Shown one piece after another: positions 32,501 to 64,000 of a stretch of 64,000 nucleotides of DNA (positions are counted from its first letter, which is position 1; each line of letters starts with the position of its first letter). The position numbers and the translations under genes were made by a program. The stretch covers positions 66,362,536 through 66,426,535 of the forward strand of contig CM055094.1 in NCBI GenBank assembly GCA_029204225.1, read 5' to 3'. This DNA comes from Diphasiastrum complanatum. Lineage: Eukaryota; Streptophyta; Lycopodiopsida; Lycopodiales; Lycopodiaceae. Below the pieces are notes generated by a model. The model did no database searches. It was not told the DNA's origin and saw only the letters and a program-made list of their open reading frames with translations.

Positions 32501-35297
32501 ATAGCCAAAACAATTAACGCTTCTAAGCAACAGTTCATTTTTCTGTTTTTCCCAATGGCAATAATGAATCTAATCTTGATAAGAACCCAGAGACCAAAAG
32601 AAATTACAAGCAAGCTGCTTGCTTGTAAATTAATAAGCCATGCCTCTCAACTTTAAGCAAAGAATTGTCAAGCATATCAATCCTCAGCCTTGTCAAAGAT
32701 ACTCACCTGAAGCTTTGTCTCCTGCAAGCATAGTACATCAAAGTTCTCACTTTCTGCAAGTTGACTTATTAACGTAGCATCTGTCTGTTTCTCATCTCTT
32801 ACTTTCAGCAGAGCTCTTAGCCCATTGACATTCCATGACATCAATTTCAAAAGATTGGTTCCAACACAAGGTAGAACTGGTCTCATACAAGTGGGATCAT
32901 AACAAACCCATTCAGGCTGAGGATTTTTATGGACTAGCAATGACCACGGCTTCCGTCGGTTTAAAGCTTGATCTAAATCGTCTATATTTGTATTGACATC
33001 TAATTCAGCTGAAATTTCAACTATTTTTGTCTTGAGGCGCTTGCCTTTGGATTGGCTCTTTGAAGGCCTTTCAAAACTTTGATCTTCTGTGTGCTGCTTC
33101 AATTTCGGTTTTCTTTTTGAATTTGGGACTTGTGAAACCCTTCCAGTAACTTTTGCGTTATCCCAACCTTCAGGGTTGGATGGACTCAACTTATTCCCTT
33201 TCCCCGGTAAGCTGTTTCCATGCTCTACGCTAGTGTGTTTTCCTTCATCAAGCTTCATCTTGTCTGGCAACAAATCATTTCGTTTCCCTTTAACAATAGC
33301 ACTTTCTTTACTATGTAACAACCTTTCTTTGCTTGTGTGAATGTCAGCTTTGGAAGCTCCTATCCTTTCAACCTCCCCTGTATCAATGCAAAACGAAATT
33401 CCACTGAATTCCAATGTTTAAACACGGCAGTCTTAACAGACAGTACAGACTCGTAAAACATTTCACAACACCGCACAAGAAAAATTCATCAAGCCATGAG
33501 CAAATGAGCTAGCTACTTCACATTCTACTTGTTAGTTGCACGTTATGATATACCTGAAGGCATGGAAGCTTGATGGCGAGCGAGAAAGCTCTTGAGCTCC
33601 TGAATCAACTCCTGCTTCCGCCCAGTGGAATCTATATGTATCTGTCTGAACGAGCCAGACTTTATCAACGCGTGATTAAGAAACACGATAAGATCTCATT
33701 GTAGGCAAGATATTCTGGTATCCGAACCAGTTTGAACGAAACAATAGCGTGTATTTCTAAGAGCGACTGTCACCCATCTCAAGATTTATTTACTTTCAAT
33801 GCCGATGGGAGCCTGGACGTGTGACAGGCACAGACAAATAACTAAATACAAACCTTTACATGCTCTTCTGAAGGGGTGAGATATAACTTACAAATTTGCA
33901 ACCTCTTCACTGAGTAACTGATATGAAAGAAACAAACTTAAGACAAACCTGTATTTAAAATCACAGTTCACTACATGATTAAAGCTTCCGCTTTTATTTT
34001 TTTTGAATTGGAGGCAGACCGAGACCAATTTATGTAGGCATGAGCGGGTTGCTAGCTGCTATACTCACTTTAAAATCTTTCTGAGCTCCATTACAGACAA
34101 GGTGGCAAGCTTCTGCGCCTTCTCCAAAGTCAATACTTTCTCCAACGTACCATCCAAACCCTGCAATCGTAACGACTCACGTGCTATAATAAATTCAGTA
34201 GAATACGATCTTGGCGTTCAAGATAAGCATCTGTAAAATGGAAGACAGAAAACCTGTGCACTGATTAACAGATATATCACAGGCTTTTTACAGTCGTAAT
34301 TTTATTGTACTCCAAAAACCGATTATAAAGTGTTACACACTAAGCATGCAGCAAAGAGCAGTTGACCCTACAGTTATAGAACGGAAAAGAAGAAGGAAGA
34401 ACAAAATGGCTTGGTCTATGGCATACATCTTCTTGAGGTCCATCCTCTTTTGCATCAGCAGATTGAACTGATTCTACTGTTACAGTTACAGCTATTTCCC
34501 CAAAAGAAGTTTCCTGTCTGGCATGATCATTTTCCCCCTCCCCCTTCTTTGTGAACTTTGCGTATCTCCTAGTCCTTGTACGTCTTGGCACTTTTGCAGT
34601 TGTCATGTCAAAGAGCTCCCTGCCAGAGTGAAATGGTCTGGTTCTGAAAGCTTGTTGTCTCACCCCAAGTAGCTCAGGACGCTGGCTCAACCTGTATTCC
34701 CAACACAACTTCCGAATCATTGATCAGCCTAGAAAAAAACTAACAGAGCTGGAAATATCAGGAACAAAACATGTAATTCACACACAAGCGTTTCGGTGCA
34801 CCGCCATTTTTAGAGATAAGTGCCTAAATTGCAACTATCTTTCAGAAGAGCAATCAGAGTTTACATCCTGGAAAACGATGGCAGGCCTTTGACAGACAAC
34901 AGCATTTGAGCTGACTAGAATCAAACAACACGAAGTTTGTGACATTTTCAGCTTCATGTTGAGAAGTAATTTTCACATATTGCAGTCTGGGAAAAAGAGA
35001 GCTGCCGCCTTTCATAAACATGAAAAATTCTTACTCGGACAGAAGGGAAGAGACCGTAATCCGGTGCAGAGCAAGAGGAGCCGTTGAGATATTGCCAGAA
35101 GAACTGCAACGCAACGCAAAGGTGTGACTATGAGGAAGAAGCAAACAGAAATGACAAGGGCTGGATTTACAGCATGCTGGGGGAGGAGCAAATGGCGTAG
35201 CAGGAAATGTAGGAGGAGGAAATGGGGTTTGGATTTTGCAGCGCAGGCGCAAGGGGGAAGAAAAGAAGAAGAGAGGGCGAAACAGACGAAGAAGCAT
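23582..35297 (-). CDS. ARP: SAP-domain apurinic/apyrimidinic endonuclease (ARP/exonuclease III family), 11 exons
   Basis: Exons on the minus strand: 35297-35035, 34691-34427, 34160-34069, 33645-33554, 33377-32707, 32322-32212, 31984-31847, 24996-24949, 24356-24276, 23992-23833, 23703-23582. All junctions use GT/AG and the phases match, giving 680 residues plus TGA. Residues 1-90 are hydrophobic, Ser/Pro/Arg-rich and poor in acid, like an organelle transit peptide. A SAP DNA-binding motif lies at about 197-229 ([24 protein letters not shown]). A basic linker follows, then the endonuclease domain at about 415-680. Residues matching the APE1 active site are present: N420 (WNVNGLR), E457 (LQETKL), Y533 (AYVPN), D573 and N575 (TGDLNC), D645 (RLDYF), D670 and H671 (GSDHCP). 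The enzyme would cut DNA 5' to abasic sites in base excision repair; the Arabidopsis homologue ARP is a plastid enzyme. Intron 7 (24997-31846) is swollen by transposons. The ATG at 35295-35297 is the likely start. Confidence 0.92.
24997..29424. other. first part of the 6.9 kb intron 7 of the AP endonuclease gene
   Basis: No exon-like segment was needed here, because exons 7 and 8 join in phase 0. No transposon domains are recognised before 29425. A CATAGTTGCCGTGG word at 28431 resembles the end of the hAT-like element at 29425 and starts a patch rich in AACGGTT/AACCGTT palindromes (28440-28560). A matching right end with a target duplication was not found. Confidence 0.5.
29425..30275. mobile_element. 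non-autonomous hAT-like element inside intron 7
   Basis: The ends are CATAGTTGCAGCGAATC and, reverse-complemented from the right, CATAATTGCAGCGCAA. Perfect 8-bp target duplications GTTTGCAA flank it (29417-29424 and 30276-30283). Subterminal regions carry dense CGATTCGC/GCGAATCG words in both orientations. The centre (29880-30010) is a GC-rich block of GGGGG and CCCCC palindromes. A poly-A run sits at 29510-29534. No transposase is encoded, so it would depend on a hAT transposase supplied elsewhere. Confidence 0.85.
30380..30720 (+). pseudogene. Ty3/Gypsy reverse transcriptase relic in intron 7
   Basis: Translation gives [20 protein letters not shown], then [20 protein letters not shown] and [12 protein letters not shown], the start of a Ty3/Gypsy RT. 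Frameshifts follow within the next 100 bases. A close relative lies at 45050-45655. Confidence 0.75.
30721..31846. other. rest of intron 7, no gene recognised
   Basis: AT-rich intron sequence between the Gypsy relic and exon 7. Nothing further is recognised. Confidence 0.45.
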
Positions 35298-38744: not shown

Positions 38745-41700
38745 CTAGCTTGGTTCAATCATTGCTTTACTAATCACTCCAAGTGATGATCTGAACTTCA
38801 TAAAAGGTGTCTTTTGAAGTGGTTTAGTAAGTAGATCAGCTACACATTCATTGCTTGGAACATGCTCCAAAGCAATCTCCTTGGCTTGCACCATTTCTCT
38901 GACAAAGTGATGGCATATCTCAATGTGCTTAGATCTTGCATGGAAGATTGGGTTAGATGCAAGGTGTTGGGCTGATATATTGTCATTGTAGATGATTGGT
39001 GCCTCCTCTGAATCCATGATCTTTAGTTCCACCAATAATCTCTTGATCCAAAGTAACTCCTTTGTAGTGGTTGTCAAAGCTTTGTACTCGGCCTCGGTTG
39101 AAGATAGAGATATAGTTTCTTGCTTTTTTGAAAGCCATGAAACCACACCTTCTCCTATGAAAGTTGAATAGGCACTTGTTGATTTCCTATCCCTCTTGTC
39201 CCCTGCAAAATCTGAATCACTAAATGCATGAAGGTTAATCACATCTCCTCTATATAGAATCCCAAAATCCAATGTACCCGAGATGTATCTTAGAATACTC
39301 TTAGCCTTTTTCCAATGGATATTCAATGGCTTTTGCATGGATTGGCTCAACCTACATACACTAAAGCTAAGATCTGGTCTAGTTATAGTGATCCACATTA
39401 AGGAACTTATAAGTTGCCTAAACAAAGTGATGTCCATGAAGGATCTTTCATCATCTTCATTTGGCACTTTTACATCTTGCTCCATTGGTGTGTCAACACT
39501 TTTGCATACTTCCATCTTAAACTTCTTCAAAAGACTTTGAGCATAGTTTACTTGACTTATAAAGATAAAATCAGACCCTCTAAGTACTTCTATGCCTAAG
39601 ATGAAGTGAAGACACCCTAGATCTACCATCTTGAACTCTAAGGATAGATCTATCTTGATTTTTTCAATACCATCAACACTATTTCCACTAATGATGATGT
39701 CATCTACATAAATGAGTAAAAGTACAATACCAACATCATCAAACTTAATGTAAAGAGTAGGATCATATTCACTTTGAACAAAAGAAAGTGAAATAAGATA
39801 GCAATGTAGTCTTGAATTCCAAGATCTCGAGGCTTGCTTCAAGCCATAGATGCTTCTTTGGAGATGGCATACTTTGTTCTCCATTCCATGCTTGATGAAC
39901 CCTTGTGGCTGCTCCATATAGATATCCTCTTCCAAAAAACCATTCAAGAAAGCATTAGAGACATCCATTTGACATAGAATCCATCCAAAATGTGATGCAA
40001 GTGCAATGATTAGTCTTATTGTGACCATCTTGGCCACGGGTGCAAAAGTTTCCTCATAGTCTATCCCTCTCTCTTGAGCATAACCTTTTGCAACTAATCT
40101 TGCTTTATGTTTGTTAACACTCCCATTTGCATTCAACTTAAGCTTGAAGACCCACTTGCATCCTATTACATTCCTTTGAGGTCTCTCAACAAGCAACCAA
40201 GTTTCAATCTCAATCAAGGCATCATACTCATCCAACATAGCTTTATACCATTCTTTGGAGTTCAATGCATCTTCAACATTAGACGGTTCTTCAAAACTAG
40301 ATAAAGCATAAGAAGTGGATGAGATACCCTCAACTTGCTGTCCTTTGCCTTGATATGTGAGCCTTGATGGCTCCACTTTTGCCCTTGAAGATCTCCTTGG
40401 TGTGATAGGTGGGTTTGGTGCTTGCTCCTCCATGAGCTCCTCCTCAAAACCAAGATCTTGCTCCTCGGCCATCTTCTTCTTGATTGTTGGAGCACTTGAG
40501 CCTTCTTCAAGCATATGCATATGATGTTCATCAAAGATGACATCCCTTGAAACAACAAATTTGTTCAAGGATGGGAGATAGACTTTGTAGCCCTTGCTTG
40601 AGCTTGCATATCCAAGCATGATCCCTCTTGTGGAAGATGGATCCTCCTTGGTTCTTGTTTCCAATGGCACATGCACATAACATATACACCCAAAAACTTT
40701 CAAGTGATTAAGATTGGGTTTCTTTCCATACAACATCTCATAAGGAGTTTTGCCTTCAATTGCTTTGCAAGACACCCTATTCATCAAGTAGTTTGCACAT
40801 ACAAGAGACTCACCCCAAAAGGATTTGGGCAAACAAGCATCTAATCTTAAAGCCTTAGAACATTCACATAATGTTCTATTCCTTCTTTCAGCAACTCCAT
40901 TTTGTTGAGGAGTGTAAGGACAAGAAGTCTCTTTCTTGATCCCTTCCTCCTCACAAAAGGCCTTGAACTCATTGGAGATGAATTCTCCACCATTGTCACT
41001 TCTAAGAATCTTGATGCTATGATTATGATGATTTTCCACAAACAACTTGAACTTTACAAAAGTATCAAATACTTGAGACTTGAAGGAAAGTAATAACACC
41101 CAACAATATCTTGAGTAGTCATCAATGAAGGTTAAGAACATGGATGAACCTCCATTAGATTTGGTGCTAGCAATGTGCACATCCGAGTGTATGAGTTCAA
41201 GAGGATGAGATGACTTTGTGATGGAGTTAGGAAACACCTTCTTATGTGCCTTGGATAAGGCACAAGCTTCACAAACCTTGTCTTCCTTCCCAATAGACCT
41301 TGGTAGGCCTAAAGCATACTCCTCCTTGATCATAGCCTCCATGGAACCCGAGTTGACATGTCCAAGTCTTTTGTGCCATAAAGTAAAGATAGATATCTTG
41401 CTCTTCTCGGCCAACATGACAACATTAGTATCTACAAATGCATCCAGCTTATAAAGTTTGCCAAGTCTAGTGCCCTTAGCCACTATCTTACCCTTCTTCT
41501 TGATGAAACATTCATTTGAAGCAAAGTCAACATTGAAACCATTATCTACCATTTGGCCAACACTTAGTAGATTCTTTGTTATTGTAGGAATGTACAAAAC
41601 ACCTTCTATGTTGATCTTTTTGAAAGATCCTAAGCAAAGGGGAATGCTACCAACTCCTTCAATCTTACAAGCTTCATCATTTGCTGTATAGATAGACTTT

Positions 41701-42714
41701 ATAGGTCCATCATAAGATAAGAGAGAAGAGAAAAACTCCCTTTTACTAGTCATGTGTGAACTAGCACCCGAGTCAATCCACCAAGGATCTTCTCCTTTGA
41801 AGCTTGTTAAAGAAAATATGGACATCATGAGAGAGTCCTCATGTGAACTCTCCTCCTCCTCCTCTTTGCTCATGTTGGCTTGGCTTTGATCTTGCTTCCT
41901 CTTGAAGCATTCCGAGGCATAATGCCCCATCTTGCTACAGTAGTAGCACTTCACCTTTGATTTGTCCTTCTTGACTTTGGTGGTTGATGGAGATGCCTTT
42001 GAGGGTCCTTCTTGGTCCTCAAGCTTTGTAGACTTCTTGAATGTTGATACTTTGCCTTTGGACTTGCCTTTGCCTTTGGTGAAGAGAGCTTGGTCATCTC
42101 CACCTTGGATGGAAAGCCTATCCATCCTCTCTTGCATTTGGCTCCTTCTTGATTCCTCGGCCATGAGTGTGCCTTGAAGTTCTTCAAGTATGGGTAGCTT
42201 ACCCATAATTGCATATCCCTGAACCAAATTGTCAAATTCAAAGCTTAGTCCATTCAATATGAGTTGAACAAGCTCTTCATCCTTGATAGGATCACCTATA
42301 AAGGCTAGCTCTTTGTTCAATTCCTTTACTCTTAGGACAAAAGTATGTGCACTCTTTCCTTTCTTTTGATAGCTTCTATAGATTTGATTCTTCAAATCTA
42401 ACATTCTAGTTTGGTTCTTGGATTCATAGACCTTTTGCAAAGTCTCCCAAGCATCTTGAGCTGAAGTGCAATCTCCTACCTCTCTTAAGAGTTCATTTGC
42501 AACATTCATTTTTATGCAATGTAGTGCAACATTGCACCTCTTGATGTATTTGGTTTTTTTCTTGAGGATGAATAGGTTCACCCTCCTTACCATTTACAAT
42601 TTCCATCAGATCTTGCATGATCATGATGGATTCCATTCTAACTTTCCATATGGAATAGTTAGTTTTGTTGAGCCTTTCATTAGTATCCAAAAGATATGCA
42701 TTTATAGATGCCAT
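38745..42714 (-). CDS. Copia gag-pol polyprotein with one gag frameshift
   Basis: The main frame, 42593-38745, encodes 1282 residues. Order: gag; CCHC zinc knuckle at about 215-228 (CYYCSKMGHYASEC); protease (WWIDSGASSHM, about 271); integrase zinc region (LWHKRLGHVN, about 405); integrase core with [14 protein letters not shown] and NGVAERRN supplying D, D and E; reverse transcriptase at about 797-1040 with IYVDDIIISGN; RNase H to the end (SLSSTEAEYKA, SNPIFHARSKHIE). The natural gag start lies upstream at 42714 in another frame (MASINAYLLDTNERLNK). The two frames meet at a run of seven T near 42552-42558, so a one-base slip in that homopolymer is the likely lesion. Otherwise the reading frame is complete, which agrees with the near-identical LTRs. 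The element could still be copied in trans. Confidence 0.95.
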
Positions 42715-48137: not shown

Positions 48138-51100
48138 GTGGGCAGATCGCCCCTGACTCCATCCCATCATGATTTGGGATGGATGGAGTTTGCATGTGGT
48201 TGTTGTTCGGCCTTGCGATGGAAAGCAAAAAGGAATAGCCGTTTCTGTTGCATGAAAGGCAAGGTGCGTTTGCCTTTGATGCCATCACTGCCTTCTGAGC
48301 TATTTCGTTTGTACACGTCCTCTGATGACATGGGAGCTCATTTTAGGAAGAGCGTTCGGAGTTACAATAACTCATTGGCATTCGCATCTCTTGGGGTGAA
48401 TCTGGATAGATCCATCTCCAACTCCGTAGGCGGCACATACACGTTTCGAGTGTCTGGGTGGTTGTACCATCACACTGATGGTTTGTTGCCATCAGATAGG
48501 CCTTCCTTTTCGTAGATTTACTTCATGGATGGTGATGATTTGCAGATGGATTAGAGATTATCTCTGAACCTCGAGCTTAGGCGTGATGTTCTCTCTGTTT
48601 TGCAGAGCATGATGGTGGATGTGAGTCCATTTGCGCAACGTTTTAAGAATGTTGCGTAGATCATGCGGGAGAACGTCACAAAGGATATTCGTCTCCGCAT
48701 AGTATCGGGTTGTTCGCAGAGTAGAGTGAGCAGGCAATTCAATGCTCTCACGAGCAATGAGATTGCAGTGCTTATGCCTTTAGACGAGACCCCGAGCGAC
48801 GAAATGCGTGACATCATACTGCATTCCATTCAGGATGGTTTTCAGTTCATCACACAACATCATTCGTCATATGATGCATTGCATTTTGTACTGTTATTTC
48901 CATTTGGTACCGATGGGTGGTATCCGAAAATCCCACATGTGCATGTCAGAGATGACGCACGTGTCGATGATGGTGTCGATAACGGTGTACTTTCTGATGC
49001 CTTTGAAGAGCATTTGGAGGGTAGTCACAAAACTGTCATCGTTCGAGAGATTTACTGCTATCATTAACAGGTTCGTGCAGAGCATGTTTCACCGATCCAT
49101 CTGGGTGGAAGGCTGCTGCAAGAGTATACGTGTGACATGATGACAAAGATGGTGCAAAATAACATGAATTACTACTACAATAATCAGCATATTTTTTGTA
49201 GAGAAATTCGTAGTGGTATTGTTGATGTCGTGGGAGCTCATTCCTCTAGCGACATAGGAACGCGTGTAGTGCTTCCATCTTCATACATCGGTTCACCGCG
49301 TCATATGCATAAGCAATACCAAGATGCTATGGCCGTCGTTAGGGAGTTGGGTTCTCCCGATTTGTTTATCACGATGACGGCGAACCCAGATTGGTTGGAG
49401 GTGAGGAGAGAGTTGCGATTCCAACAGAAAGTTGCAGATAGGCCTGATTTGGTATCAAGGGTTTTTAGCATGAAGCTTCAACATTTGATCGACCTACTGA
49501 AGAACGATGGTATTTTTGGGCGCATTATAGGGAGGCTGCATGTCGTGGAATTCCAGAAGAGAAAATTGCCTCACGCCCACCTATTAATTATATTAGAGGA
49601 GCGGAACAAACCCATCACGGGAGGATTTAAAGTCCTCATTGAACCTAAGAACAGACTATGTCATATTAGTTGAGATTACGATCGTATTGTGTGTGCGAAG
49701 GTTCATGTGAAGGAGGAAGATCCGGAGTTGTACGAGATAGTGAGGACATGTATGATGCACGGCCCATGCGGAACAACTTTTCCAAATGCACCATGCATGA
49801 AGGATGGAAAGTGCTCGAAGAACTACCCAAGGAATTTCATTGATGAAACATTGGTGGTGAAAGGGTATGTTTCATATAGGCGGAGGGAGAACGAAGTGAC
49901 GGTGCGTTCACATGGAGTGGAGTTAGATAACAGGTGGGTTGTACCGTACAACAGGTGGTTGACACTACATTTTCAGTGCCACTTGGACGTGGAGGTATGT
50001 GTACATATACGTAGTGTGAAGTATTTGTACAAGTACGTGTACAAGGGACCTGATATGATTACGGCAGGGGCTGTAGAGGACGGTGGTCAGACATCAGGAC
50101 GAGTGGATGAGATAGGGCAATTTCTTAATGCTCAATACTTCTCAGCCAGTGAGTCGTGTTGGCGATTGTTGGGGCTTTCTATGGGTGCTCATAAGCCCGT
50201 GGTGACCCAGTTGGTAGTTCATCTCCTTGGACAAGAATTGGTGTACTTAAGAGAGGGAATGGATTTAGAGGAGGTCGTAGATGGGCGTTCAGGTATCACT
50301 TTGACGACATTCTTTGAGCTGAACAGAAGTGGTGATTCAGAGGCTGGAGAGTTGTTGTACTAGGACTTGCCGAGACACTATTGGTATAACAAGAGAACGC
50401 GTAGGTGGACCCGTCGAATCAACATGCAGACGAACCCTACCATTGGTCGCATGTATTTTGTACACCCATCCGAAGGGGAGAGGTTCTATATGCGAGTTGT
50501 TTTGGCTCATGTCAGAGGTGCAACCAGCTTTGAGGACTTGCGCACGGCTGATGGTGAGTTGTTTCAGTCATTCAGAGATGCTTGCAGACATAGACTTTTT
50601 ATAAATGACGCAAATGAGTGGAGTTGCTGCTTGCACGAGGCGGTGTCATGGGGCACTCCATTGTAGCTTCGTCTCATGTTCACTGTGCTTCTTTTGACAT
50701 GTGTCCCTTCCGACCCATTGGAGCTCTGGAGGAGCATAGAGCCACATTTAGTTGAGGATTATGCACACGAGTTAGGATAGCCAATAACGTGCGAGACCAT
50801 TTTTGTGAGTCAGGTTTTGGTAGACAGAGCTATTCTTGATGTGGAGTCGCACATGCAGGCAGCTGGAAAGTCGTTGGTGAATTTTGGGTTTAGGGTCCCC
50901 GATGCCGTTTTTGGTTCATCTACATTGTTTTGTGAGGAGATGTTTGTCGACGAGAACCCTTCAGAGGTTGAGGTTGACATCGAGAGATTGAACGTGGATC
51001 AGCGAAAGATTTTTGACCGTGTAGTACATGAGCATGTTGTTCGGAGAGTGGGTGGAGTGTTTTTTGTAGATGGTCTGGGTGGTACAGGCAAGACACACCT

Positions 51101-51720
51101 TTATAGTGTCATGTTGTCATACGTGCGTGCACAAGGGTGGATAGCATTGGCAGTTGCATCGAGTGGGATTGCTGCATTGTTGATGAAAGGTGGTAGGACC
51201 GCACACTCTCGGTTTAAAATTCCTCCGACGGAATTGAATGAGAGCTTGACATGCAACATTTCTAAGCAATTTGTATTAGGTACGCTTTTGATGGCGTGTC
51301 GACTGATCATTTGGGATGAGGATCCCATGGCGCATAAGTATGCTATAGAGTGCGTAGATCAATCTCCACGAGATATATTGAGTATCGACGTTCCATTTGG
51401 AGGAGTTCCAGTGTTTTCGAGGGTGATTTTTGACAGATTCTACTAGTGGTGCCACGTGGAAGTCGGGCGCAGATTGTCAATGCTTCGCTGAAGTGTTCGC
51501 TTTTGTGGAAACACATGGAGGTGCATAAATTGACAAAGAACATGCGCGTCATGGACGTGGAGGGTGGCAATAAGGATGAGCCATTGAGGTTTGCAGATTA
51601 TTTGTTGAGTGTGGGAGATGGTCGTGAGCCCACATTCGTGCATCATGATTTGGACCTGATTTCTCTGCCAGAGGGCATGCATAGTTTGCAATTGTTGAAT
51701 GCAGAGTTATCACAATGTTG
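48138..51720 (+). pseudogene. Helitron Rep-PIF1 helicase, inactivated by in-frame stops
   Basis: One frame runs from 48138 to 51446 with about eight stops but almost no frameshift; a single shift near 51440 connects to 51446-51720. Helitron_like_N region: GKVRLPLMPSLP, HFRKSVRSYNNSLAFASLGV. Rep: DLFITMTANPDW near 49360; the HUH motif as FQKRKLPHAHLLIIL near 49550; the two-tyrosine motif KYLYKYVYKG near 50022. PIF1-type helicase: GLGGTGKTHL near 51076 (Walker A) and LIIWDEDPMA near 51305 (Walker B, with Asp where Ala is usual). The C-terminal helicase motifs V and VI are absent. Rep nicks and joins DNA ends during rolling-circle transposition. Several stops are TAG where the family has Gln. 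Confidence 0.9.
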
Positions 51721-52309: not shown

Positions 52310-53882
<1,573 letters not shown>

Positions 53883-54920
53883 ATGTCAAAAACAGATGCG
53901 GCTTCCGTTTATGTATCTACTGGTCCATTGATCGTTGGTTATGCATTGTGTTCTAGCCTGCTTGCCGTGATCAACAAGTATGCAGTGACTTATTTTCCTT
54001 ACCCTAGCCTCCTCACGGCCTTCCAGTATGCGACTAGTGCCGGTGGAGTATGGATGTTAGGTCGCACGGGCATTCTCGTCCACGATCCATTAGTTTATGA
54101 GACGGTCAAAAAATTCCTACCAGCAGCACTTGTTTTCTATCTTGCCATTTTCACTAACACTAATCTCCTGAAACACGCCAACGTAGATACTTTCATTGTT
54201 TTCAGATCCTCGACGCCATTGCTGGTGGCGATAGCAGACACCGTTTTCAGGAATCAGCAATGGCCATCCAGATCTACGTTCATATCTCTGTTGGTTATCT
54301 TGGGAGGGGCGGTAGGATACGTTGCTACGGATTCTGCATTTAACGTGACTGCATATTCCTGGGCCGTAGCTTACTTGGTGACGATCACAACCGAGATGGT
54401 GTACATCAAGCACATGGTGACAAATCTGGGGCTAAACACATGGGGCTTTGTTTTCTACAACAATCTTCTGTCTTTGATGATGGCTCCGTTTTTCTGGTTT
54501 TTGACAGGGGAATATGTAGAGGTTAGAAATGCCCCCTGGGCAAGCTTGCTGGAACCGCAAGCGGTTGTATCAGTCGGCATTTCGTGCTTGTTTGGCCTCG
54601 CAATCAGTTTCTTCGGCTTTGCAGCAAGAAAAGCGATTTCTGCAACAGCTTTCACAGTCACAGGAGTGGTGAACAAGCTACTTACAGTGATTATTAATGT
54701 GCTCATTTGGGACAAGCATGCAAGTAACACCGGAATTCTCTTTCTTGTCCTCACAATCGTGGGGGGCGTAATGTATCAACAGTCAACCTCTAAGAAGCCA
54801 GCACCTCAGGCTGACACAGTCTTACTCAAGGAAATCGATTCTGAGCACATTAAGGATGACTTAGGCTTGGATCCTGAAAATGATGAGGAGAGCGCTCTCA
54901 AATCCAAGTTCTCCAAGTAG
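53883..54920 (+). CDS. Golgi nucleotide-sugar transporter, GONST4/GFT1 type (probable GDP-fucose transporter)
   Basis: A single uninterrupted frame of 345 codons starts at an ATG in AAAATGTC context and ends in TAG. It is highly hydrophobic, with about ten membrane segments between residues 13 and 300, as expected of the drug/metabolite-transporter fold. Blocks typical of plant GONST4/GFT1 proteins are GYALCSSLLAVINKY (residues 19-33), FYLAIFTNTNLLKHANVDTF, FVVFRS-like FIVFRSSTPLLVAIAD, YLVTITTEMVYIKHMV and FTVTGVVNKLLTVIINVLIW. The GVVNK block corresponds to the GALNK nucleotide-binding motif of GDP-mannose transporters. The hydrophilic tail ends acidic, then SKFSK. In Arabidopsis the GONST4 locus (GFT1) imports GDP-fucose into the Golgi. 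Substrate here is inferred from that relation. No stop or frameshift is seen, so the gene appears functional. Confidence 0.92.
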   Translation: MSKTDAASVYVSTGPLIVGYALCSSLLAVINKYAVTYFPYPSLLTAFQYATSAGGVWMLGRTGILVHDPLVYETVKKFLPAALVFYLAIFTNTNLLKHANVDTFIVFRSSTPLLVAIADTVFRNQQWPSRSTFISLLVILGGAVGYVATDSAFNVTAYSWAVAYLVTITTEMVYIKHMVTNLGLNTWGFVFYNNLLSLMMAPFFWFLTGEYVEVRNAPWASLLEPQAVVSVGISCLFGLAISFFGFAARKAISATAFTVTGVVNKLLTVIINVLIWDKHASNTGILFLVLTIVGGVMYQQSTSKKPAPQADTVLLKEIDSEHIKDDLGLDPENDEESALKSKFSK

Positions 54921-58101: not shown

Positions 58102-59349
58102 ATGGCTACACATAATTGGAGACCAAGAGGAACCATTGATGCAATCAATATTTGCAATGAAAAAAATGCAAAAGGTCAATGGATACCAAGAATATATCGA
58201 AAATATCAATGGATCTTGATGCATCCCTCTGCAAAAGGCTCATTCCGAAAAAGAAAAAGATCGGATAACATATATAGAAGCTCTTAGAAAGGCAGGATAA
58301 TGGATTTTAAAGTATCACCTGCCGGTCAAATGCAATTGTAAGTTTTCAGATTCAATTTCTTTAGATTTAGCATTTTCTTTAAATTATATTTTTCTTGAGA
58401 TGTTTTTGTTGGTTTTGTAGATTTGTATCCATCAAATTTCTTTGAATGGCAATCAGTTAAATCGATTGTAGAAATAATCGATGTCATACATTCGGATATC
58501 GGTATTTTACAATATAAAAGTTGTTCTTCAAAATCACTTTTAGAGTCAAGAGCTTTTTTTATGATCACACCTATTTTCTTGATAAAAATGGTTTAGTTGG
58601 TAGATTAGAGCCATATCCTCTACCAGATTTTTTAAGTGAGGAGTGGATTTCTCCTGATGCAGCAATTTCAGAAAGTTTTCGATCTAGGCTATATATTAAT
58701 ATTCAGAGTATATTAAAATGTAGCACTGGATCAAAGAATAATAGATTAAGTTGGTATCTACCTCTTACTATTTTTGTTAATTTTTTTTTTCCAAATGCAA
58801 TATTCGGAGAACGAAAACAATGTTTATTTGTAGGGACTTGAGTGCTGATATAATCGCCGAGTTGTTGGATGATGGTTGGGATACAAAACAAAATCAGCAA
58901 GTTGAGTGCAAAGTATGTTACTCATCCATGACATTTAGATATCACATCGAAAAACAAATGCTCACTTTGCTGCTGTATTATAGAAGATGGATTAAATGCA
59001 AAAATGTTTGGAAGCCACTTGATCAAGATTTTGGTATAAACCCTCAAGAGCAACTTCAGATAATAGTGAAAAGAAATGACAACATTCTTGCAATGGTTGA
59101 GGTCGAGGAAGATTGGTGTCTCAATCACATTCGATCAGAACTAGATATGTTGCAATTCGATCTACCTCAGTACTATCAATTTCGATTGATGTAAATGTAC
59201 GTTATGCCATATAAAAATATTCCTTTTTTTCTATTTCTAAGTGAATCAGTTTCATAAAATATTTAACTAAAATATTTTCTCGTGTGCAGGTAAGAGTAAG
59301 GCAAGAAGTGCATATAAAATGCAAAGACATTGGAACATCCATCGAAATT
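58102..59349 (+). pseudogene. broken plus-strand gene of unknown family (gene C of the 58-64 kb module)
   Basis: An ATG at 58102 starts MATHNWRPRGTIDAINICNE. The next piece, in another frame, ends LRKAG then WILKYHLPVKCN near 58335. After a probable intron, 58420-58840 gives SNFFEWQSVKSIVEIIDVIH, then (frame 58521) YFLDKNGLVGRLEPYPLPDF and LSEEWISPDAAISESFRSRL. One frameshift near 58830 leads to LSADIIAELLDDGWDTKQNQ. The last open piece reads LQIIVKRNDNILAMVEVEED and LPQYYQFRL. An AG acceptor near 59288 precedes VRVRQEVHIKCKDIGTSI and a TAG stop at 59347-59349. The last two segments together have the strand pattern of a beta-grasp (ubiquitin-like) domain, but I cannot match a family. It is inactive as written. 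Confidence 0.45.
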
Positions 59350-59457: not shown

Positions 59458-59605
59458 TTCTATGATCTCCATTTCCATGGTGCAAAACACAATATAATTG
59501 CAACTGGATAATATGAGTTTTCGATAGCAAGATTCATTGTCTCCTGTAGGAAATGCACTATCTCCATTGGGGAGATCTTCAGTCACTTGAACTCCAATGA
59601 TCACT
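59458..59605 (-). pseudogene. duplicated, fused copy of the last coding pieces of the H3/Ulp1 gene
   Basis: 59458-59590 repeats, with substitutions, the terminal exon of the gene at 60005-62082 (GAAGATCTCCCCAATGGAGA is shared, then CAGGAGAC, GAAAA, CATAT, CCAGTTGCA). At 59591-59605 it is preceded on the minus strand by AGTGATCATTGGAG, which is the start of that gene's third exon (DHW codons). A partial second copy therefore lies directly downstream, with an internal deletion. Confidence 0.7.
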
Positions 59606-60410
59606 ACAATCGACGCTTGCCCTTGTTGAAGTCTCCTTGGTCTATATTGTCCTTGTCTTGGCATATTTGGATATGTTCAGATGACGATCTGATCAAAGCT
59701 TTGCTGCAACAAATCTAAGTGAACTAATGTCGCATGTTTGGATTGGTTGTGGCAAAGGTTCGATCAGATCATCATTCTGAACTTATCCCAAAAAGACCAT
59801 GGTAAAGACAAGGCAGACCAAGGCAATGAAAAACAAACATGTCGAAAAACAGTAGAAATTGAAGATGAATGAATCATAACCTGAATTGATAAGAGGAAAA
59901 TTAGCAAGTGAGAACAACCATAGAAAAACTGTAAGTATATTTCTATTAAAATTTTCTGTACATGTGTCTCATCCACATCAAGTGAGACGACTATTTAAAC
60001 AAAATCAACTATCTATGATCTCTAAATCCATTTCTCCAGTTGGAAGTAGCTTGGGTGGAGAACACTCGGCCACTGCAACTGGATATGAATTTTCGATCAC
60101 AAACTTTATGGTCTCCTGTCTGAAGTGCATTATCTCCATTGGGGAGATCTTCGGGCATTTAAACTGAAAAAAAAACATAAACACAGTTAAATGTAATTAA
60201 ACAAAGATCAGTTATTAGGAGTTTGTATATGAAAAAAACAAAAACACAATTAAAAGTAATTAATCGAATATTACCTCTTCCAGATTTGGAAGTCCATCTT
60301 GTAATGCAAGCCAATTAAAAAAGTGTTTGGCATTGCATATGGTATACCAACCACAGCTGAGAGAATCAACCTACTGGAAGGACTGCAGAATTTAAATTTG
60401 GACATTATGA

Positions 60411-60480
60411 GATATCGATCAATGCGCAGGATGTAAGAATAAAATCTACAACGGAAACAAGCGCGCGTCGAACTGATATC
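60411..60480. repeat. inverted-repeat unit 1 (intron of gene A)
   Basis: GATATCGATCAATGCGCAGG on the left is answered by GCGCGCGTCGAACTGATATC on the right. Half-site centres are about 50 bp apart. Confidence 0.8.
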
Positions 60481-60496
60481 AAAATTTTTTGGTTGA

Positions 60497-60567
60497 ATAT
60501 CGGATCAGCGCGCACGTTGGAAAAATAAACCAATCAATAACTACAAGGGCACATCGAACCGATATTG
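60497..60567. repeat. inverted-repeat unit 2 (intron of gene A)
   Basis: ATATCGGATCAGCGCGCACG on the left, GGGCACATCGAACCGATATT on the right, inverted. Confidence 0.85.
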
Positions 60568-60667
60568 AAAAATTTATACCTCTGTATCAACCATTTTCAG
60601 CTTCGAGTTTGCTTTTGCATTTGGTACTGGAAAGAGTTCCAGTATTTTCTGTATATGGGTCCTGGCA

Positions 60668-60671
<4 letters not shown>

Positions 60672-60704
<33 letters not shown>
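60672..60704. repeat. (GT)n microsatellite in the intron of gene A
   Basis: About 16 GT units between exon 3 of gene A and the inverted-repeat units. Confidence 0.95.
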
Positions 60705-60708
<4 letters not shown>

Positions 60709-62305
60709 GAGTCATCTTCAAACATACTGGATTACACACACCCTCATCATTGACGTACAGAGACAACACATATAAGCTCCAATGATCACTGAAATCAGAA
60801 AACAAGAAATTTATGAGAATCAATGTGAAATCATCAAAATTCATATGAAAAATTCAATAAGATAAAATATGAAAAATAGACACTTACTTTGTTATGTATG
60901 GCAGCACAATAATTGGAGTCCCCAGTCTGACGTATTGGAACATATCATCGTGCAAACTTTTGAAATCAGGAAAATCAAATGCTGCCATGAATTATGCAAC
61001 ATCTATAAACAATGGGGTCTGGAAGAACTCCATCCAGTACTGAATTGCCCCACCTCCTACATTGTCCCCTAGCATTTTATCCCTACTTTCTAATTCACCA
61101 GTATCTAAACTAGAAAGGGGGAGACTAGCATTGGTCTTTGGCATTCTAAAACTGTATCGAGGACCTAAACCTTTAAGATACGTGTTTAACAATTGGTCAT
61201 ACTGTACATATTGAGAACTATTTACAAAGGCAAGTGCAGGGGGTGACAAAAGTAACACTGATAAACCACATAAAGAATTGTCATTCAAAATTGATTCTAC
61301 CTTTACACTAACAAAATCATCTAAATCGCTTCCAACAACAGGAGGAGGGGAAGTGATATTTACGGGTTTAGGAGGAGGAGGAGATTGAGGAGGTGGAGTT
61401 TGGTTAGGAGAGGAAGATTTAGCAGGAGAAGTTAAAGATGGAGTGGAAGGAGAAGAAGGAGACTTAGGAGGAGAATGCCTAGAAGAAAGAATAGTATTCA
61501 GAGGAGATGGCTTGGAAAAATCCCTCGCTTTAGATGGAGGGTCGAGAGACCTCCTCTTCTTTGAAACACTCCCGCTCTGTATACAAATAACAAGTAGGGT
61601 TGGTTGAGATTGCTTTCTTTTCTCCTCTCTGAATCTTGTTTTGGAGGAGAGGAAGGAACATGTCTAAAGTATTCAGCAAACTTGTCATATGTGTCTCGAA
61701 GCCTGAATACAATGTTGAAATCCTTGATGGTCACCCTCTTGGCATGGACAGCTGCAACAACAATATCAGAAAAAAATTTCACCTAAAAATCCTCATATGT
61801 TGTGTGCAGCGCCTCAATTGCCGTTATCGTCCATCTCACATCTGCAGATAGACTTCTTGTCACCTGCTTGATGGACCTCTGTATGTGAGATTTTGAAATC
61901 AGAAGATTATTTGTCTTCTGAAGCTTCCGAATATCCTTGAGCTAGGGTGGGTCTCTTCTTCAACCCCTTGGCCTAGGAGGAGGTGGTGGTGGACGAGGTG
62001 GTGGTTGTGGATTTCCCTGACCCGCATCTGAAATTGGTATTCCACCTGAATGTCCTCGTGCTGTCTGCTTGGTCCGCGCCATTACTGTGTAGTAGCAGAT
62101 CAGCGCACGATAATGTTGATTTCAGGATCAGACCTCAGGTCGGGCATGTCAAAGTGATACTTGAGCTAAACAATTTCGTTAGCTGGTAGCGGATGGGTGC
62201 GAGCGAGTAGGAACGGATTGAAGGAAGTTGTTTTCGAGTGCGCTAAATCTATATCGCATGGATATAAATAACTATAAGCAAAAAAATTTCAGCGTCGTTG
62301 ATCAG

Positions 62306-62313
62306 TATATATA
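62306..62313 (-). promoter_or_regulatory. possible TATA box of gene A
   Basis: TATATATA lies about 220 bp upstream of the gene A start on the minus strand. The motif is palindromic and common in AT-rich DNA. Confidence 0.3.
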
Positions 62314-62592
62314 GAGAAAATCAGAAATGATTGCAAACGTGGTGGCTCGTATTACGATGATGATTACTTAGAGGCTTGTCAATCAAATCAATCTAAATAT
62401 CCATCAGTCATCAAAATGATTAGTCCATATCGAATTAGCCAGAATTAATTTCAAATAAAGTATGGTCACATCTACAATTAATCACACTTCTACCATTTAA
62501 TACTGAAATTGACAACATTAAGCTTTAAATATAAGACCTTTTTTATATCCAATAATTATAATTTTGAAAAATTTCAAAGGCCAGATTTTCAC

Positions 62593-62667
62593 CCGATAGC
62601 TAATCAACGCGCATATAAAGCATTTGACAATCATAGTATGTATTCTCGTGCGCTCATCCGATATTGG
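62593..62667. repeat. inverted-repeat unit 3 (between genes A and B)
   Basis: CGATAGCTAATCAACGCGCA on the left, TCGTGCGCTCATCCGATATT on the right. Confidence 0.75.
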
Positions 62668-62809
62668 ACGCAATATGAATGATCAGAGCTTGATTCGATA
62701 GATTCTGCATAACTTTGGCCAGTATGAAGAGTCTTCCGAATCAAGCTTTGATCATGCATATAGGGTCCAATAGTTTCAAAAATTTTGATAATATTTTGGT
62801 CCTAGAATA

Positions 62810-62878
62810 GCGATTCGACGCGCGTAGTCCAAATGCAACAAATACATCGTCTGCCAGGCGCGCTGATCCGATATCCCA
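62810..62878. repeat. inverted-repeat unit 4 (between genes A and B)
   Basis: GCGATTCGACGCGCGT on the left, GGCGCGCTGATCCGATATCC on the right. Confidence 0.8.
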
Positions 62879-63263
62879 TACACAGAAAAATCATACTGGA
62901 ACGCATAATGAAAGACTTATGAAAATGTTCTGAATGAACATTATCTCAAAAGGAAAATTTTCGTCTTTATGGTGCTTAAATAGGGCGAGAGATTGTAATA
63001 ATTCTCCCCGTTCACGTTTTTCAATGATATCCACTAATCAATTGTTTATAGTTTTTTTAATGATTATTCTAGGAGGCTAGTGATTGTCTATTTAATGTAT
63101 TCCGGCGCAGGGCTAATGATGATTCGTTGAATCTAGTACTAGACTAGTTAATGTATTTTGGCGTAGGTACAAATTAGTCTCATTCTGATTGGTGGATAAA
63201 TATAGGCTGTAAATCACAATTCGTTATTTGACAAATGTATGGCTGTGATCAACAGGAATTGGC

Positions 63264-63271
63264 TATAAATA
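63264..63271 (+). promoter_or_regulatory. possible TATA box of gene B
   Basis: TATAAATA, about 280 bp upstream of the ATG at 63550, in GGCTATAAATATG context. Confidence 0.4.
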
Positions 63272-63347
63272 TGTGCACCACTTTCCATATTTCGATTCCG
63301 TAATCTTTTATTCTGAACTCTTTAGCCTTCTTGTTTTTCTTCATTCT

Positions 63348-63423
63348 CCCGATATCGAATCGACGTGCGCCATCCCTTGCTGTACATGCTCGTATTCATT
63401 CAGGCGCATTGAATCGATATCAG
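63348..63423. repeat. inverted-repeat unit 5 (upstream of gene B)
   Basis: CGATATCGAATCGACGTGCG on the left, GGCGCATTGAATCGATATCA on the right. Confidence 0.85.
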
Positions 63424-63470
63424 CCACTTCCGACCAGTGCTTTTTGAAAAATTTCATTCTCGGCCTTACT

Positions 63471-63542
63471 ATATCGGATCAGCGCGTGCACTTTGCTTTA
63501 GTCCTCTACCGATATTTATTTGAGGCGTTGAACCGATATCGG
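63471..63542. repeat. inverted-repeat unit 6 (upstream of gene B)
   Basis: ATATCGGATCAGCGCGTGCA on the left, AGGCGTTGAACCGATATCGG on the right. It ends eight bases before the gene B start codon, so it would lie in the 5' UTR. Confidence 0.85.
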
Positions 63543-63549
63543 ATTCAAT

Positions 63550-64000
63550 ATGGCTAGTTCCTCCATGGCCTCAAATGAAAAACTTATGGATTTTTTTTAA
63601 TACCAATGACATTCCATCTGACAAATTAGAGTATTTTGCTAGTATATTTTTTTGCTCCCTTTGATATCAATAAGCTAGTTTATGAGAATCGTTATAATTT
63701 AATTTTTTATCTTGATAATTTTTCTCAGATTATTAGTACTCCTATGTTGGATATAGATAATTTTTGTTTCGTTCATTTTCAGGATCTTGTACATTCCCAA
63801 CCATCCTCTAAGCATAAACACAATAGGAAGTACTCTAACCTGCATGACCATTTCAAAAGAAATATACTGTGATATCCACAAAAGATTATGTTGCCTTCTA
63901 ATCAAAGGAATGGCTTTTGTGTTCTACATATCTGCTGAAATTCCAAATGATGAGTCTGTTGAATCTTCAACTGTTCCATTGATTATCAAAAAACTCTCCC
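63550..64000 (+). pseudogene. 5' part of an unknown plus-strand gene (gene B), cut by the window end
   Basis: ATG at 63550 starts MASSSMASNEKLMDFF. Two frame changes at T runs (about 63590-63598 and 63644-63650) are needed to go on to DIPSDKLEYFASIF and FDINKLVYENRYNLIFYLDN, then FCFVHFQDLVHSQPSSKHKH. A third change near 63860 leads to IYCDIHKRLCCLLIKGMAFV and AEIPNDESVESSTVPL, still open at the window end. No family is recognised. It is divergent from gene A, with the inverted-repeat units in between. Errors in homopolymers could make it look more broken than it is. Confidence 0.45.

Follow-up and report, generated by a model that had tools for sequence, protein, structure and literature searches.

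A decayed gene of Diphasiastrum complanatum appears to combine a first half that is identified by its sequence as H3-like with a second half that is weakly assigned to the C48 (Ulp1-type) proteases. The DNA analyzed was a 64,000-nt window of contig CM055094.1, and all positions are given as window coordinates. The gene is accompanied by an array of paired 18-bp sites with fixed spacing, a feature that is new to this analysis and absent from the preliminary description of the locus. Our preferred reading, which is held tentatively, is that the locus represents a dead copy of a mobile-element-type gene and that intact relatives of it would make an H3-protease anti-silencing factor.

Structure and decay of the gene

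The features of the locus are collected in Table 1. The four peptides from which the gene was originally recognized are all encoded on the minus strand: MARTKQTARGHSGG from 62082, HAKRVTIKDFNIV with its His at codon 113, DHWSLYVL and VDSLSCGWYTI. As had been proposed, the last two lie behind introns, both of the GT-AG type; DHWSLYVL opens the exon at 60788-60580 and VDSLSCGWYTI is located within the exon at 60382-60275. The introns of the protease half measure 99, 197, and 111 nt, and all three are GT-AG in the splice model. The exons of the protease model and the 83-nt intron were picked by eye, and exons chosen in this way favor a match to the C48 profile.

Table 1. Features of the H3-protease locus and its paired-site modules (window coordinates).
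Feature	Position	Strand	Basis
Exon 1: H3-like tail (K4 the sole lysine), Pro-rich stretch, H3 core and helix, three in-frame stops	61660..62082	-	Pfam/PDB match, alignment, splice model
Candidate 83-nt GT-AG intron from H3 half to linker, in frame, weak donor	61577..61659	-	picked by eye
Exon 2: KKRR motif, Pro/Ser-rich linker, N-terminal part of C48-like domain, one in-frame stop	60888..61576	-	ORF list, splice model
Exon 3: NDHW (His motif), CA repeat with frame change	60580..60788	-	splice model
Intron between His and Cys exons, 197 nt, GT-AG, containing two paired-site modules	60383..60579	-	splice model
Exon 4: VDSLSCGWYTICN (Cys motif), in-frame stop	60275..60382	-	splice model, SENP8 alignment
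Exon 5: C-terminal end and final stop	60005..60163	-	ORF list, splice model
Module 1 (left site one base shorter, by eye)	60411..60480		motif search and pairing
Module 2	60496..60566		motif search and pairing
Module 3	62595..62665		motif search and pairing
Module 4	62806..62875		motif search and pairing
Module 5	63351..63421		motif search and pairing
Module 6	63470..63540		motif search and pairing

The copy at this locus is a pseudogene. In the H3 half, in-frame stops occur at the minus-strand codons starting at 61962, 61944, and 61785. In the protease half, a TAA at 60994-60992 ends the 223-codon frame and a TAG at 60373-60371 falls within the Cys exon. A CA repeat (60672-60704) inside the His exon is accompanied by a frame change. 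With five in-frame stops (three in the H3 half and two in the protease half) and one frame change in total, the window copy would be unable to make a full-length fusion. The earlier observation that MARTKQTARGHSGG and HAKRVTIKDFNIV share a frame is accurate as to the minus-strand frame, but this frame is not open, since the three stops cross it. Tiny introns that might remove the H3 stops were considered and rejected, because a 23-nt candidate (picked by eye) shifts the frame and the third stop is inside the ungapped core.

The preliminary description had left open whether the H3 part and the protease are one protein or two adjacent genes, given that the frame changes between them. The H3 frame, which lacks a stop after the fold, extends to 61498, beyond the point at which the protease frame opens (61663). 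The two frames therefore overlap, which leaves no intergenic space. The donor of the candidate GT-AG intron at 61659-61577 is weak and its acceptor T-rich; the intron would join the halves in frame, so the frame change between them does not force two genes. The join is a candidate only, yet on this arrangement the two halves plausibly form one continuous gene. The locus could instead hold two unrelated neighbors, namely a diverged and dead H3-variant pseudogene directly 5' of an Ulp1-carrying transposon gene fragment. Each half has known relatives by itself, the halves are in different frames, and the joining intron is a weak-donor one picked by eye. Against such neighbors stand the overlapping frames, the existence of an in-frame GT-AG join and a site array that spans both halves, and we regard this alternative as rather unlikely.

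The H3-like half

The minus-strand frame from 62082 starts with MARTKQTARGHSGG, which is followed by a Pro-rich stretch, a complete H3 core, and HAKRVTI. When read through with X at the stops, this half matched Pfam Histone with E=3.1e-15 and 56.9 bits (cut-off 26.4). A stop-free piece of 52 residues was above the cut-off by itself (32.7 vs 26.4 bits), and the 94-residue frame containing HAKRVTI gave no Pfam match by itself. The best solved structure by sequence in a PDB search was yeast H3 (E=2.9e-17, residues 1-129). The H3-like fold proposed earlier is thus borne out by sequence, far above chance. AlphaFold, run on the H3 part without an alignment, returned a mean pLDDT of 47.6. No second H3 part was found in the 64-kb window.

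The core aligns over 72 residues with zero gaps; 30 of the 72 are identical to yeast H3 and 29 to plant H3.3. Residues K56, R69, R83, H113, K115, R116, and T118 are kept, R49, R63, R72, and K79 are altered, and residues 87-90 read TAIE. CENH3 has a longer loop 1, and the gapless alignment argues that no such loop is present here. When neutral divergence was simulated 1000 times down to an equal identity, only 1% of the runs had core substitutions as conservative as these. This suggests that the H3-like gene diverged under constraint as a histone before dying. The stop count does not by itself point to past constraint: one stop lies in the core, and 20% of the neutral simulations had one stop or none.

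The N-terminal end of the tail is better preserved than the core. Residues 1-9 are kept without exception (9/9 vs 29/72 in the core; Fisher p=6e-4, with the boundary set after looking), as are 11 of the first 14 residues, and the part preceding the core has 47 residues compared to 48 in H3. The tail has one lysine, K4, whereas canonical H3 has eight, and position 9 is Gly. Among the modifiable lysines of the H3 tail (K4, K9, K14, K27, and K36), K4 alone is present. K9 and K27 are the usual silencing sites of H3. In the translated sequence both are missing and the K4 end is intact, so that the H3 mimic, with K4 as its sole tail lysine, is sharper than first described.

The protease half

The protease half begins in an open frame of 223 codons (61663-60992) that encodes the KKRR motif, the Pro/Ser-rich linker, and the domain start. 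For comparison, stop-free runs reached at most 218 codons among 40 random 64-kb sequences of similar composition. The Ulp1/C48 label had been based on the His and Cys motifs. These motifs stand, and the spliced model fits a small C48 profile in catalytic register, but it had no Pfam C48 match at E<=10. The H3 and C48 profile searches suggested in the preliminary description returned Histone (E=3.1e-15) but not Peptidase C48, which is absent from the Pfam matches at E<=10.

When the 189-residue protease model was compared to the PDB, SENP8 ranked first (E=1) with the Cys in register. Within the C48 catalytic set, the His and Cys are aligned, the Asp region is at the frame change, and the stop at 60373-60371 occupies the position of the catalytic Gln in the SENP8 alignment. 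A profile of four C48 proteins without SENP8 aligned the model from His to Cys with a single-test E=2.1e-4, and one of 2000 shuffles scored as high. With an SENP8 fragment added post hoc, the profile gave E=2.1e-5 and none of 2000 shuffles scored as high. When all 1514 single ORFs of the window were scored, the Cys exon came second with the SENP8-containing profile and was absent from the six ORFs listed for the profile lacking SENP8. The Cys half alone retrieved no C48 chain. Pairwise comparison with yeast Ulp1 fell short of significance, with 66 and 126 of 1000 shuffles scoring as high under two matrices, and the alignment was off register.

The last protease exon has a partial second copy at 59499-59593, which is 81% identical to 60074-60165. 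It adjoins a short match (59592-59611) to the first part of the His exon, as if the copy had been internally deleted.

An array of paired sites

With three mismatches or fewer allowed, the window contains 11 occurrences of the 18-bp motif GATATCGGWTCRRCGCGC, and all of these sites lie within 60463-63540. The expected number is 0.04, and none of 100 shuffles reached 11. A 12th site at 60411, one base shorter, was added by eye. The 12 sites make up six convergent (inverted) pairs with start offsets of 52, 53, 53, 52, 53, and 53 bp, and 20000 random placements of 12 sites produced at most two such pairs. Two modules of this array of fixed spacing are in the intron that separates the His exon from the Cys exon, four are upstream of the start codon, and none overlaps an exon. 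A blind search for inverted 18-mers at offsets of 45-60 gave 53 bp no special place: in 60001-64000 it accounted for 7 of 57 pairs, as many as 51, 55, and 57 did. The array is visible through its shared motif.

The arms show 77% identity across the six modules, a figure slightly favored by having oriented the modules with like arms first. The interiors are 28% identical vs 26% (sd 1.8) in shuffled interiors, and 39% vs 37% (sd 1.3) when the best of six registers is taken. The interiors are therefore at or slightly above chance likeness. A protein complex that contacts two sites would select just such a pattern, in which the ends are conserved, lie about five helical turns apart, and enclose a nearly unconstrained interior. 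An RNA hairpin was rejected as the cause of the modules, because arms within a module (61-82% alike, mean 0.73) resemble each other about as much as arms across modules (0.71). Two further candidates were left out. A seventh pair at 62185/62238 has the offset of 53 bp and scores of 10.5 and 11.9, compared to as much as 13.1 for chance matches elsewhere in the window. A lone site at 62091, next to the start codon, has a score of 14.6 vs the same chance maximum of 13.1 and was excluded from the pair counts.

The sites may belong to another protein, such as the transposase of the element or a host factor, in which case the H3 part would be a tail decoy only or non-functional. It is position alone that ties the sites to the H3-protease protein, and a transposase or transcription factor acting as a dimer would fit inverted pairs with a fixed spacing as well. 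The sites nevertheless do not occur in the remaining 60 kb of the window and, as for VANC targets, none is found in the exons of the gene. We consider this assignment of the sites unlikely.

Neighborhood of the locus

In the six reading frames of 56-64 kb, Pfam matches at E<=1 were limited to the histone, gag_pre-integrase of the Copia type (E=4.2e-9), a weak integrase (E=0.01), and a weak CENP-T (E=0.21). No transposase domain (MULE and VANA included) and neither DUF1985 nor DUF287 was detected at E<=1 in these frames. A 19-base inverted repeat (59934/63850) was rejected as the element ends, since no target-site duplication was seen in the flanks when these were compared by eye.

The locus could also be a host gene that is not mobile, i.e., a lineage-specific H3 variant with a protease domain that was duplicated and died, the sites being promoter and intron elements. 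Its introns, the upstream sites, and the partial last-exon copy nearby (59499-59593) would fit such a gene, and the mobile hallmark of a transposase domain was not found in 56-64 kb. In our opinion, however, a host promoter with six modules spread across 3 kb, an intron included, would be unusual. The neighborhood also contains Copia-type sequence, and we regard a host origin as distinctly improbable.

Several other features were observed in the window. Imperfect palindromes at 59635-59823 (72% over 195 aligned bases) and 62662-62772 (arms of 50 nt, 84% complementary) are perhaps foldback elements. A convergent 137-aa frame at 58781-59194 on the plus strand (DGWDTKQ...YQFRLM) might belong to the same element as a second gene; it had no confident Pfam or PDB match, and AlphaFold without an alignment gave a model of it with a mean pLDDT of 38.0, too low to be of use. 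An uninterrupted 350-aa frame of the sugar-phosphate-transporter type (53868-54920, plus strand; Pfam TPT E=5.7e-15) is likely a host gene. An uninterrupted 1282-aa Copia-type polyprotein frame (38745-42593, minus strand) and fragmented Helitron-like helicase frames (49068-51446, plus strand) were labeled by sight. An AP-endonuclease-like start is located at 32677-33417 on the minus strand (Exo_endo_phos 23.3 bits, just below the cut-off of 24.5). Rfam (gathering scores) and ARAGORN gave no match in the window.

Relation to known systems

The VANDAL elements, which are non-TIR MULEs, offer the closest analogy drawn here. VANC21 is described as located at introns, intergenic regions, and terminal non-coding regions of its element, where it binds a short, densely packed motif that keeps to one orientation (PMC5735166). 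VANC expression is described in the same source as stripping DNA methylation from VANDAL elements (PMC5735166). The KIU genes (Kaonashi) are VANC genes with a Ulp1 domain in some VANDAL elements, and the cited text states that the role of Ulp1 is unknown (PMC13317346). As far as these sources describe them, the shared feature is a gene with a Ulp1-type domain beside short motifs in introns and upstream DNA, the motifs here being absent elsewhere in the window (PMC5735166, PMC13317346). The array in introns and upstream DNA was found at this locus (11 sites vs 0.04 expected, none exonic), and it offers independent, transposon-like support in the VANDAL style. The locus differs in that an H3-like part stands in front and that neither DUF1985 or other VANC domains nor a MULE transposase was found within 56-64 kb. 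The geometry is also different: VANC targets are described as tandem and in the same orientation, whereas the motif here is longer, at 18 bp, and arranged in inverted pairs with an offset of 52-53 bp (PMC5735166). Because DUF1985, DUF287, and a transposase are absent from 56-64 kb and the pair geometry differs, membership of the locus in VANDAL is not claimed.

Compared to histone H3 and its variants, the gene shares MARTKQTAR, a full ungapped core, and HAKRVTI. It departs from them in its core identity to plant H3.3 (29/72), its single-lysine tail, a frame that is open past the fold, and its being a dead copy. Compared to Peptidase C48 (Ulp1, SENP8), it shares the HW and CG motifs in order, SENP8 as the first of the PDB matches (E=1), and the profile register; it differs in lacking a Pfam match at E<=10 and in having a stop at the Gln position. 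Virus-encoded histones likewise place a histone in a parasitic genome, and some are described as keeping host-like tails and chaperone-site residues (PMC9145170). Those histones belong to viral genomes, and no protease fusion is among the ones described in the cited portion of that source (PMC9145170).

Relatives of the fusion were sought in several collections. No H3-Ulp1 element appeared in the titles and abstracts of open-licence PMC literature, among the matches listed. Against 5.8 billion proteins, the H3-like read-through yielded none among 17 candidates, in a set that is weak for eukaryotes and also missed canonical H3. In the same number of proteins, residues 160-340 of the protease model yielded none among 194 candidates, and the yeast Ulp1 query itself brought just 4 of 32. 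No relative was found among 223 pattern matches in viral contigs.

A proposed role for intact relatives

In our preferred reading of the locus as a dead mobile-element-type gene, intact relatives would encode one nuclear protein in which an H3-like tail and fold are joined through a basic linker rich in Pro and Ser to an isopeptidase of the C48 (Ulp1) type. The task of the H3 part would be to enter chromatin or dock on it, either by pairing with H4 or via readers of the K4 end, while offering neither K9 nor K27 for silencing marks. The protease part would take SUMO or ubiquitin off nearby silencing proteins. Preference for its own copies may be provided by the paired 18-bp sites in the intron and upstream, much as VANC reads the motif arrays of VANDAL; by this analogy, we infer that the H3-protease protein is recruited to the paired sites. 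We likewise infer the mobility of the element, the binding of the sites by the protein, and anti-silencing.

In a bolder and improbable version, a mobile element would carry its own H3, and the H3-protease fusion, together with host H4, would assemble into a tetrasome-like particle on the two-fold 71-bp modules of the element's own DNA. About 70-80 bp are accommodated by two H3-H4 pairs, and it is module size and two-fold symmetry only that favor this version. Such a particle would replace the silenceable H3 at these modules by an H3 without K9 and K27 while the tethered Ulp1-type domain strips SUMO or ubiquitin, giving the transposon a private chromatin that is addressed by sequence.

The fixed spacing of the paired sites makes the DNA-recognition half of the proposal testable with short probes. 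If intact copies exist, they would represent a cellular mobile element with a histone of its own that is coupled to a SUMO/ubiquitin protease. Such copies would also provide a direct handle on how transposons escape from H3K9-based silencing.
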